A stretch of DNA of 64,000 nt from an uncultured Candidatus Nitrosopumilus sp. (GTDB lineage Archaea > Thermoproteota > Nitrososphaeria > Nitrososphaerales > Nitrosopumilaceae), in contig OX638319.1 of the NCBI GenBank assembly GCA_951812655.1, positions 930,001-994,000 on the forward strand, given 5' to 3'. Positions 15,853 to 18,662 of the stretch are shown one piece after another. The notes below the pieces were generated by a model that worked only from the letters and a program-made list of their open reading frames with translations, was not told the DNA's origin and did no database searches. Position numbers and translations under genes: made by a program. Numbering within the stretch: the first letter of the stretch is position 1; the number at the start of each line of letters is the position of its first letter.

Positions 15853-16227
15853 CTACATTGGCGGAAGTTCTGTTTTTTTGTCATGACCGCCAGAACCAAA
15901 TTTACAGTAAAAACACAGTTCTGATTCCATATACTTTAGTTGTTCTATATGAATAGCTCCCAGTTTAAGGGCAATTTTTGTAAGAAGTCTGTATTTTAAT
16001 GGCATTGCTGGAATCACTTCATTCATGTATACTTTGTAATGATCGGGACAAAACTTTAGGGTGACTTTGGATGGTTCTTTTCCTTTTTCGTTAACCTGTT
16101 TTGTAAAGTTGATTTGTTCTCTTATGTATTCATGTTTTGGACAAGGACAATTTTTGCCTCCGGGATGTTTGTAGGCTGGAATATTTTTCCAATCGAAATC
16201 TGGATACTCCTTTTCAAAATCATCCAT
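15853..16227 (-). CDS. Cysteine-rich hypothetical protein, 124 residues
   Basis: A soluble protein with three Cys/His clusters: CPCPKH near residue 27, FCPDH near residue 60 and CFYC near residue 105. Together they could bind one or two zinc ions or an Fe-S cluster. The rest is mostly helical with no membrane span. It stands alone, with about 260 gene-free bases on its upstream side in UbiD direction. No family recognised. Confidence 0.65.
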   Translation of the reverse strand: MDDFEKEYPDFDWKNIPAYKHPGGKNCPCPKHEYIREQINFTKQVNEKGKEPSKVTLKFCPDHYKVYMNEVIPAMPLKYRLLTKIALKLGAIHIEQLKYMESELCFYCKFGSGGHDKKTELPPM

Positions 16228-16324
16228 AATGCTTAGTGTTGAATTTTAACATATAAAACTTGATCAAGATCCCTTGTGATAATTAACCCAAATGTACATA
16301 AACCCCGAACTATCCATCAAAATT

Positions 16325-17329
16325 ATGGCATCTGCTAGTAAAAAGAATACAAAGCAAGAACTTGAAAACAAGATTGCCGAATTAGAAGCAAAATTAAATC
16401 AACTTTCTACCCAGTTGGTGTCTGAACCAACTGAGGATGCACCAAAGCCAGCTGAGACTGCTGCAAAACCAAAGGGCACTTTGCCAAAAGGATTTGGAGA
16501 CAAGCCAGCAGAGGCTGCAAAGCCAGCTGAGACTGCAAAGCCAGCTGAGACTGCTGCAAAACCAAAGGGCACTTTGCCAAAAGGATTTGGAGACAAGCCA
16601 GCAGAGGCTGCAAAGCCGAAGGATGCGCCAAAGCCAAAGCCAGCTGAGACTGCTGCAAAACCAAAGGGCACTTTGCCAAAAGGATTTGGAGACAAGCCAG
16701 CAGAGGCTGCAAAGCCGAAGGATGCGCCAAAGCCAAAGCCAGCTGAGACTGCTGCAAAACCAAAGGGCACTTTGCCAAAAGGATTTGGAGACAAGCCAGC
16801 AGAGGCTGCAAAGCCAGCTGAGACTGCAAAGCCAGCTGAGACTGCTGCAAAACCAAAGGGCACTTTGCCAAAAGGATTTGGAGACAAGCCAGCAGAGGCT
16901 GCAAAGCCGAAGGATGCGCCAAAGCCAAAGCCAGCTGAGACTAAGTCACAGCCTCCAGTAACTGTGCAAGAAGCTTTAGAGAACGCATACTATACCGCTC
17001 CTATGACTTCGTTCCATGATTACCGGGCAAAGGTTACGGGATATTCGCCAGCTCCTAACAGATACTTTGTCAGACTCACCGCACCTGTAGGAAAAGTTCC
17101 AACTAGAAATTGGAATGAACAAAAGGCATCTGTCACTGGTTATACCGCAGCATCAGATCAGTACTTTGCAACAAGAACGAGATTGGCATACCATCCTGCT
17201 GATAAGACATTTGGAAGCTTTAGTGGTAACTATCTTACCGTTGAAGGGGCAACAGCACAAACGCAACAGCAACAGGCTCCTCCCGCAGAAGCACCAAAGC
17301 CAAAAGGCACACTGCCAAAGGGTTTCTAA
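16325..17329 (+). CDS. GTLPKGF-repeat coiled-coil protein A
   Basis: A 334-residue protein. Residues about 10-35 form a heptad coiled coil (LENKIAELEAKLNQL). The middle is a Pro/Ala/Lys-rich array of five units of 31-33 residues, each holding PKGTLPKGFGDKPAEAAKP. Then comes an approximately 100-residue folded domain rich in Tyr and Arg (SFHDYRAKVTGYSPAPNRYF, later KASVTGYTAASDQYF, apparently two half-repeats), and the protein ends in a sixth GTLPKGF. ATG 16325 is chosen over 16292 because the tandem paralogue starts at the matching place. No signal peptide. Function unknown; the repeated motif looks like a binding peptide. Confidence 0.85.
   Translation: MASASKKNTKQELENKIAELEAKLNQLSTQLVSEPTEDAPKPAETAAKPKGTLPKGFGDKPAEAAKPAETAKPAETAAKPKGTLPKGFGDKPAEAAKPKDAPKPKPAETAAKPKGTLPKGFGDKPAEAAKPKDAPKPKPAETAAKPKGTLPKGFGDKPAEAAKPAETAKPAETAAKPKGTLPKGFGDKPAEAAKPKDAPKPKPAETKSQPPVTVQEALENAYYTAPMTSFHDYRAKVTGYSPAPNRYFVRLTAPVGKVPTRNWNEQKASVTGYTAASDQYFATRTRLAYHPADKTFGSFSGNYLTVEGATAQTQQQQAPPAEAPKPKGTLPKGF
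16441..16945 (+). repeat. Tandem 93/99-bp coding repeats
   Basis: Five near-identical DNA units encoding the GTLPKGF array. The string aaagggcactttgcc starts at 16471, 16564, 16663, 16762 and 16855, giving steps of 93, 99, 99 and 93 bases. Near identity at the nucleotide level indicates recent expansion or ongoing unequal recombination, so the copy number may vary between strains. Confidence 0.95.
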
Positions 17330-17690
17330 TTCAACAAATAACATCTTTTATTTTCTATTTTTGTTTTTTATCGTCTAGTGCTTTTTTATTGTTTAAAACT
17401 TACATGTATGAATATTGTGGAATAATAATTGAAATATTGCATCCGTGATACTTTTACAAATTATTTTGGTTTTCCGATCTGATTTCATGTTGTTGTCTGA
17501 AATCTTTCTTGTCTTGAGTGAGTATTTTTCTCGTCTAATCTGTTTCAAATGATGATTTCAAAAAATAGTCCTCTTGACGCTTATATTACGCCAGAATTTT
17601 TACAATATATTGTTGAATTTTATCTATTAATTAGAATATTTTTTTGAATAATCAAAATGTAAATAAACAATGTGTTATTTATTGTAATGA
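17330..17690. other. Spacer between the two GTLPKGF-repeat genes
   Basis: About 360 AT-rich bases with T-runs just after the first stop (tattttctatttttgttttttatc), which may terminate transcription. No gene, and no similarity to the upstream flank of the first copy, was noticed. It should hold the promoter of the second copy. Confidence 0.5.
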
Positions 17691-18662
17691 ATGGCAGCAA
17701 AACGCAAATCTAACGATAAGCAAGATCTTGAAAACAAGATTGCCGAATTAGAAGCAAAATTAAATCAACTTTCTACCCAGTTGGTGTCTGAACCAACTGA
17801 GGATGCAAAGCCAGCAGAAACTGCAAAGCCAGCTGAGACTGCTGCAAAACCAAAGGGCACTTTGCCAAAAGGATTTGGAGACAAGCCAGCAGAGGCTGCA
17901 AAGCCGAAGGATGCGCCAAAGCCAAAGCCAGCTGAGACTAAGTCACAGCCTCCAGTAACTGTGCAAGAAGCTTTAGAGAACGCATACTATACCGCTCCTA
18001 TGACTTCGTTCCATGATTACCGGGCAAAGGTTACGGGATATTCGCCAGCTCCTAACAGATACTTTGTCAGACTCACCGCACCTGTAGGAAAAGTTCCAAC
18101 TAGAAATTGGAATGAACAAAAGGCATCTGTCACTGGTTATACCGCAGCATCAGATCAGTACTTTGCAACAAGAACGAGATTGGCATACCATCCTGCTGAT
18201 AAGACATTTGGAAGCTTTAGTGGTAACTATCTTACCGTTGAAGGGGCAACAGCACAAACGCAACAGCAACAGGCTCCTCCCGCAGAAGCACCAAAGCCAA
18301 AAGGCACACTGCCAAAAGACACGGCACAAACACAACAATCTCCTCCTCCTCCTCAACCATCTACATACGCTGAATCTGATACAAAGTCAAAGGCTGAAAA
18401 GCTAAAAGACTATGAAGATGACTATCTGAAAAGAATTGAGCAACAAAAAATAGATGATGAAAAGGCATATCAGGAAATTCTTGAAGCCGAGGTAAAGTCT
18501 AGGGCAGAAAAAACACGTGGGTCATTGCCAAAGGGCTTTGAAGCGAAGTCTGAACCAGAGCCTCCAAAGCCATCCCGAGGAACACTTCCAAAGGGCTTTG
18601 AAGCGAAGTCTGAACCAGAGCCTCCAAAGCCATCCCGAGGAACACTTCCAAAGGGCTTCTGA
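17691..18662 (+). CDS. GTLPKGF-repeat coiled-coil protein B
   Basis: A 323-residue tandem paralogue of protein A. It shares the coiled coil, one PKGTLPKGFGDKPAE unit and the complete 100-residue Tyr/Arg domain. It then diverges at a degenerate GTLPKDT, adds a Gln/Pro/Ser linker and a charged helix (KAEKLKDYEDDYLKRIEQQ), and ends with RGSLPKGF and two RGTLPKGF copies spaced by EAKSEPEPPKPS. So the motif is kept at the C-terminus in a different sequence context, which argues it is functional. Two stretches are identical in DNA to gene A (80 bp and about 495 bp). Confidence 0.85.
   Translation: MAAKRKSNDKQDLENKIAELEAKLNQLSTQLVSEPTEDAKPAETAKPAETAAKPKGTLPKGFGDKPAEAAKPKDAPKPKPAETKSQPPVTVQEALENAYYTAPMTSFHDYRAKVTGYSPAPNRYFVRLTAPVGKVPTRNWNEQKASVTGYTAASDQYFATRTRLAYHPADKTFGSFSGNYLTVEGATAQTQQQQAPPAEAPKPKGTLPKDTAQTQQSPPPPQPSTYAESDTKSKAEKLKDYEDDYLKRIEQQKIDDEKAYQEILEAEVKSRAEKTRGSLPKGFEAKSEPEPPKPSRGTLPKGFEAKSEPEPPKPSRGTLPKGF

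Follow-up and report, generated by a model that had tools for sequence, protein, structure and literature searches.

A conserved short peptide repeated in a gene pair of Nitrosopumilaceae recurs at the N-terminus of AmoX

Organisation of the gene pair

The window, a 64,000-nucleotide stretch of contig OX638319.1 from an uncultured Candidatus Nitrosopumilus sp., carries two adjacent open reading frames, A and B, whose position and layout match those of the twin repeat proteins described there by a sequence-only reading. The features of the pair, in window coordinates, are as follows.

16290–16306, + strand: conserved element AAATGTACATAAACCCC upstream of A, aligned by eye across loci; probably a promoter
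16325–17329, + strand: gene A, open reading frame of 334 aa from an inner ATG at 16325
16352–16423, + strand: N-terminal Glu/Lys/Leu heptad-like segment of A, a putative coiled coil, KQELENKIAELEAKLNQLSTQL
16475–16495, + strand: A, GTLPKGF copy 1 (codon-degenerate genome search)
16568–16588, + strand: A, GTLPKGF copy 2 (codon-degenerate genome search)
16667–16687, + strand: A, GTLPKGF copy 3 (codon-degenerate genome search)
16766–16786, + strand: A, GTLPKGF copy 4 (codon-degenerate genome search)
16859–16879, + strand: A, GTLPKGF copy 5 (codon-degenerate genome search)
16949–17263, + strand: A, Tyr/Arg region with two half-repeats (two alignments of homologues; no confident fold)
17306–17326, + strand: A, C-terminal GTLPKGF copy 6 (genome search and C-terminal conservation in homologues)
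17655–17672, + strand: related, promoter-like element AAATGTAAATAAACAATG upstream of B (alignment across loci)
17691–18662, + strand: gene B, open reading frame of 323 aa, with a tail longer than that of A in paired loci
17856–17876, + strand: B, GTLPKGF copy 1 (codon-degenerate genome search)
17946–18260, + strand: B, Tyr/Arg region, identical in protein to that of A
18303–18323, + strand: B, degenerate copy GTLPKDT (sequence)
18519–18539, + strand: B, GSLPKGF (sequence)
18579–18599, + strand: B, GTLPKGF inside the EAKSEPEPPKPSR linker (codon-degenerate genome search)
18639–18659, + strand: B, C-terminal GTLPKGF (codon-degenerate genome search)

The promoter-like elements lie approximately 20–35 nt upstream of the two start codons and differ between the genes; their position suggests that the mRNAs of both A and B are probably leaderless. 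A longer start for A at 16292 (MYINP...), offered by the ORF finder, was dropped because this stretch coincides with the conserved DNA element, of which B has a related version upstream. The heptad-like segment was conserved in a full-length alignment of homologues, and the linkers of both proteins are of low complexity by inspection.

All six GTLPKGF copies reported for A were recovered. The five of B comprise GTLPKGF, the degenerate GTLPKDT, GSLPKGF (which the earlier reading had counted as a copy) and two further GTLPKGF, the last three lying, as described, within the unrelated EAKSEPEPPKPSR linker. An exact codon-degenerate search found GTLPKGF encoded nine times in the 1.67-Mb genome, always in A or B, and the pair represents the dominant internal carriers of the peptide in this genome. 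The pattern read backwards did not occur in the same genome, and the peptide never arose in 2000 shuffles of the residues of A. Several codon spellings are used; five of the six copies in A belong to an amplified unit and share a single DNA spelling. Independent evidence for the peptide comes from the differently spelled C-terminal copies of B together with the homologues.

That A and B belong to no recognisable family was borne out against curated families and solved structures: the best Pfam match had an E value of 0.012, below the cut-off, NCBIfam gave none, and a profile of the Tyr/Arg region returned a single chance-level match (E 0.23) among solved structures.

Distribution and genomic context

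The Tyr/Arg profile matched 186 of 250 Nitrosopumilaceae genomes, including 116 of the 131 good ones and all 22 genera, leaving 15 good family genomes without an A/B match. Relatives with named records belong to Nitrosopumilus, Nitrosarchaeum and Cenarchaeum, which identifies the family as Nitrosopumilaceae; the names given here to the families compared are presumed, partly on the basis of such records. An order-wide profile search matched 176 of 400 genomes, and the only one outside the family, among the matches listed, was a weak hit in the genome G315 (E 0.002). A single-sequence search of 16 genomes from other families yielded no matches, and 16 pattern matches on viral contigs included no relatives of A or B. 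Within the genus of the window genome itself, the one-contig, 99%-complete genome G129 gave no A/B match in two profile searches.

The pair occupies a syntenic locus, flanked on one side by a radical-SAM gene, a UbiD-like gene and a 124-aa ORF, and on the other by peroxiredoxin-like and aquaporin-like genes (names assigned by eye). This flanking gene order was conserved in all 13 loci examined, two of them from the diverged genus g31, and some of these loci (L048, L056 and L068) show a single copy instead of a pair. The 124-aa ORF (window positions 15853–16227, − strand) contains several Cys residues, is 77–94% identical in 13 of 13 loci and always adjoins A/B; it matched no Pfam or NCBIfam family and is a possible partner of the pair.

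The Tyr/Arg region and concerted evolution of A and B

The Tyr/Arg region contains 8 Tyr and 6 Arg in 90 residues, with 10 invariant columns in an alignment of 36 diverse sequences. It is internally repeated, as seen in genus g30, where each half aligns to the same portion of the profile; genus g31 keeps only a reduced version. An AlphaFold2 model of the Tyr/Arg half of the protein with its tail reached a mean pLDDT of 50.1 and a pTM of 0.18 on 36 sequences, low values that shallow alignment can also cause, and the C-terminal peptide did not dock onto the region in this model. Thus, of the 100-residue Tyr/Arg domain proposed earlier, the conserved region and its two half-repeats stand, while a fold is not supported by this model; a sticky repeat may describe the region better.

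Over 524 bp covering this region, the DNA of A and B is 99% identical, and the encoded protein is identical there. Of 28 distinct within-genome pairs, 19 had Tyr/Arg regions with 100% identity, and the other nine were 75–93% identical. Median identity was 100% for A versus B within a genome and 74% between A genes of different genomes (the pair medians were taken over all 31 rows, four of which, L003, L038, L228 and L229, are the window genome, giving 28 distinct). B retains its own longer tail. Gene conversion homogenises the pair; therefore, identity within a genome tells nothing about constraint, and the shared half is not counted as independent evidence.

Conservation of the peptide over its linkers

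The loci retrieved supplied 131 distinct homologues, 123 of them closed by a stop codon. Exact C-terminal [LM]PKGF was present in 98 of these 123, and LPxG plus one residue fell within the last 12 positions in 110; these counts are of distinct sequences, not of independent lineages, and seven of the 123 contain masked residues. Exceptional final peptides were GTLPKGT, GTLPKGS, GTLPKGL, GVLPKGS and a short GTLPKG. Homologues of genus g31 read LPAGF followed by KP or KA, and those of g30 carry the motif followed by a tail such as ...KANTGH. The motif was absent from the end of a few homologues (L023, L097, L106, L151, L155 and L165, two of them masked), and middle copies often have M, S or T in place of the final F.

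The linkers differ strongly between genera (KPAE/EVKPA, TTAPPPAPKPAP, EEKPPSPH and others) while LPKG stays. An alignment of 36 A-type C-terminal halves showed invariant G, L, P, K and G columns in the peptide, next to a preceding linker full of gaps. A and B thus carry several copies of one conserved motif in variable linkers, as multivalent short-motif proteins do. The earlier proposal that the peptide, and not the linker, is the functional part and may dock a partner many times over is supported by this variation between genera, by the 98 [LM]PKGF ends and by the recurrence of the peptide on unrelated proteins described below: instead of a conserved linker with the motif gone, the pattern which that reading had named as refuting it, we observed the opposite, the peptide outlasting the linker.

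AmoX begins with the same peptide

A search for LPKGF showed that the clearest copy elsewhere in the window genome lies in a 120-aa membrane protein starting MTLPKGFGSGGTGGSSS (MTLPKGFGSGG...). Its gene is located between those of AmoA (PF12942, E 6.9e-116) and AmoC (PF04896), beside AmoB (PF04744), which identifies this small membrane protein of the amo cluster as AmoX. The name rests on position and on PMC10030591; no AmoX model among the curated family models matched the protein, and a comparison with solved structures gave no matches. AmoX is a proposed subunit of ammonia monooxygenase (AMO), with support from native gels, conservation and co-regulation, and its physical presence in the AMO complex is reported for other ammonia-oxidising archaea (AOA) (PMC10030591).

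Homology searches located AmoX in 37 of 40 family genomes tested, the three misses being 72–84% complete. The peptide, which the sequence-only reading had suggested seeking at other protein ends, opened AmoX in 37 of 37, with MTLPKGF in 36 and MALPKGF in one. The codons of the TLPKGF start vary between genomes, indicating constraint on the protein; behind the start comes a Gly/Ser stretch that varies in length. In the structural model, three confident helices (residues 17–56, 63–89 and 97–117) are preceded by 16 residues of low-confidence coil, which suggests that the N-terminus is a tail; the Lys/Arg residues adjoining the first helix suggest that this tail is cytosolic.

Scanning 25 family genomes for M-x-LPKG starts recovered 26 sites, with at least one in every genome, and 25 of these are AmoX by position; of the 39 genomes scanned in all, one had backwards control sites. 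Besides AmoX, genome G232 has a second MTLPKG-like start (G232:C1:1062810-1062826, − strand). AmoX of G031 starts MTLPKGY, and AmoX of G025, from a third family that we take to be Nitrosocaldaceae, has no TLPKG tail. The unbiased tail counts are thus those of the 37 family genomes found by homology, plus G031 with and G025 without the tail; for the sister family, the motif itself served to retrieve the AmoX sequences, and the codon comparison kept only proteins with one of three listed starts. In genus g31, A and B read LPAGF or LPAGM and AmoX keeps LPKGF, so the two sides showed no co-variation at the Lys position.

Other carriers of the peptide

In the sister family, MTLPKG(F/Y) starts were detected in 22 of 24 genomes of at least 95% completeness (44 sites, with 0 backwards control sites). 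The 30 sites with loci comprised 13 AmoX (plus one masked, AmoX-like), 11 of an 87-aa protein (one cut) and five of a coiled-coil repeat protein, one of which is masked and reads MTFPKGY. The peptide therefore stands there on AmoX and two unrelated soluble proteins, without A/B bar the weak G315 hit. The 87-aa soluble protein (L297/L355 and relatives) starts MTLPKGFGSQ... and has no Pfam match. The coiled-coil proteins (L298, L357, L376, L379 and L382) begin MTLPKGY and contain a coiled-coil repeat that varies, and the complete ones have a conserved aromatic C-terminus, ...REAYL-TMKEATSSYFRLLDFW; their phasin-like look was noted by eye, and Pfam lends it no support.

Genome G046 encodes a separate multivalent carrier without the Tyr/Arg region, with 14 copies counted on L278; in its locus L283 (G046:C1:1719500-1724500, − strand), RGTLPKGF copies sit in EKPEPK linkers with a C-terminal coiled coil. 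Long coiled coils carry variants of the peptide: a giant repetitive protein of G000 (C1, approximately 674924-679962; L249:4924-9963, + strand; ORF of 1679 aa) has one GALPKGWD and a Lys/Pro/Ala-rich C-terminus, and a shorter relative in G232 (L285) has GTLPKGW. In G092, a small protein adjoining A/B ends ATLPKGFIKDAKANTGH, like its A/B neighbour. LPKGW in G013 (L284) and G031 (L292) was set aside as chance, the frames being broken by stops, and inspection by eye assigned several LPKG[FYW] matches of other genomes to unrelated enzymes.

This recurrence on unrelated proteins resembles the behaviour of a docking motif. It suggests that the peptide moves between proteins and is a mobile, putatively docking, peptide of AOA, whose putative receptor should be older than A/B.

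Interpretation and alternatives

Taken together, the motif itself is well supported, and very probably the peptide is a functional docking motif; from its presence on AmoX we infer a link to AMO. Since A/B and AmoX both carry the ligand, a third protein is the most likely peptide receptor. The most economical mechanism would then be a multivalent scaffold gathering either AMO itself or a hub to which AMO binds as well. A and B would be cytosolic, largely disordered, multivalent scaffold proteins of Nitrosopumilaceae, oligomerised by the short N-terminal coiled coil, with flexible Pro/Lys linkers holding out several docking peptides of core T/S-L-P-K-G-F/Y/W. The Tyr/Arg repeats may contribute weak, sticky contacts or act as a further docking site. 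In AmoX, as a subunit of membrane-bound AMO, the peptide would serve as the flexible N-terminal tail, and a third, putative protein would bind it, so that many AmoX tails and many A/B arms could meet there, leaving AMO complexes clustered or tethered. We consider this whole scheme, disordered multivalent scaffolds sharing a putative receptor with the AmoX tail and organising AMO or its hub, a plausible proposal that stops somewhat short of probable.

Three observations weaken the AMO-specific reading, and the docking reading less: the Lys-to-Ala difference between A/B and AmoX in g31, the A/B-free genome G129, and the wider carriers (the 87-aa protein and the long coiled coils) without a known tie to AMO. 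In addition, the sister family has the AmoX tail without A/B, apart from the weak G315 hit, so A/B cannot be needed for the role of the tail there.

One alternative is a general address tag for a cytosolic hub unrelated to AMO organisation, such as a chaperone, a storage granule or the machinery of division or degradation. Its carriers (AmoX, the 87-aa protein, the coiled-coil proteins and A/B) would then be separate clients, with A/B scaffolding something else. We regard this as a serious possibility, if one with the balance against it: several unrelated carriers exist, of which only one is in AMO, and A/B lie away from the amo cluster (946 kb versus 259 kb in the window genome), but in 25 Nitrosopumilaceae genomes AmoX is essentially the sole protein starting with the peptide, and A/B are the dominant internal carriers in the window genome.

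The Tyr/Arg region could itself be the peptide pocket, A/B cross-linking mutually and catching AmoX tails directly, as might be expected from two conserved elements in the same protein. This seems improbable, given that the sister family lacks the region yet has the peptide on AmoX and on two further proteins, that g31 retains only a reduced one, and that the model shows no confident fold and leaves the C-terminal peptide undocked. A role as nucleoid-associated protein or envelope filler, in which the Lys/Pro/Ala tails act and the peptide is a spacer, would suit the Lys/Ala/Pro-rich A with its net charge of +20, but B has a net charge of only +7, and the basic linkers vary between lineages while the peptide stays, making this explanation highly improbable. 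Least credible is coincidence or convergence between the A/B peptide and the AmoX start with no common partner. In its favour, the motif is short and the g31 spellings differ at one residue; against it, A/B and AmoX share six identical residues (TLPKGF) throughout most of the family, backwards control sites occurred in 1 of 39 genomes and, in the sister family, 0 of 24, and the same start opens two further unrelated proteins.

Comparison with known systems

The multivalent short-motif scaffold is a kind already known. EPYC1, the linker of the algal pyrenoid, is disordered and has repeated short binding motifs, as proposed for A/B, but its motif, partner and organism are different, and to our knowledge it has no coiled coil/Tyr-Arg layout like that of A/B. 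In the alpha-carboxysome, according to PMC10614612, CsoS2 and the N-terminus of CsoSCA, both disordered, attach to Rubisco at overlapping sites through substantially different motifs. A scaffold and the tail of a client enzyme meeting on one hub is the logic proposed for A/B and AmoX; however, the hub there is Rubisco and the motifs differ, whereas A/B and AmoX share one peptide, with a putative hub and a membrane-enzyme client. The likeness of A/B to CsoS2 and EPYC1 would be in working, not descent, and no sequence relation is claimed. AmoX likewise shares with A/B the TLPKGF peptide, at its N-terminus, but it is a three-helix membrane protein with one copy, whereas A/B are soluble with 5–6 copies and not homologous to it.

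The peptide, its carriers and the AmoX link appear undescribed in the open-licence literature searched. LPKGF occurred there together with archaea in no record, and the matches listed for LPKGF all concern coronaviruses. The excerpts of PMC11082331 hold nothing on AMO arrays, and open-licence searches on proteomes and repeats, AmoX with cryo, phasin/PHA in AOA and Thaumarchaeota short linear motifs gave nothing specific.

Significance for ammonia-oxidising archaea

A broader idea, which we offer as doubtful, is that AOA organise AMO by a peptide code, the AmoX tail and A/B binding one receptor and building membrane-attached AMO clusters without the internal membranes of bacterial nitrifiers. 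Through a conserved peptide shared with a putative many-copy scaffold, the AmoX tail acquires a role that can be tested, and TLPKGF can be used as bait for the putative receptor. For the Nitrosopumilaceae, a family-wide gene pair of so far unassigned role thereby gains its first concrete hypothesis.
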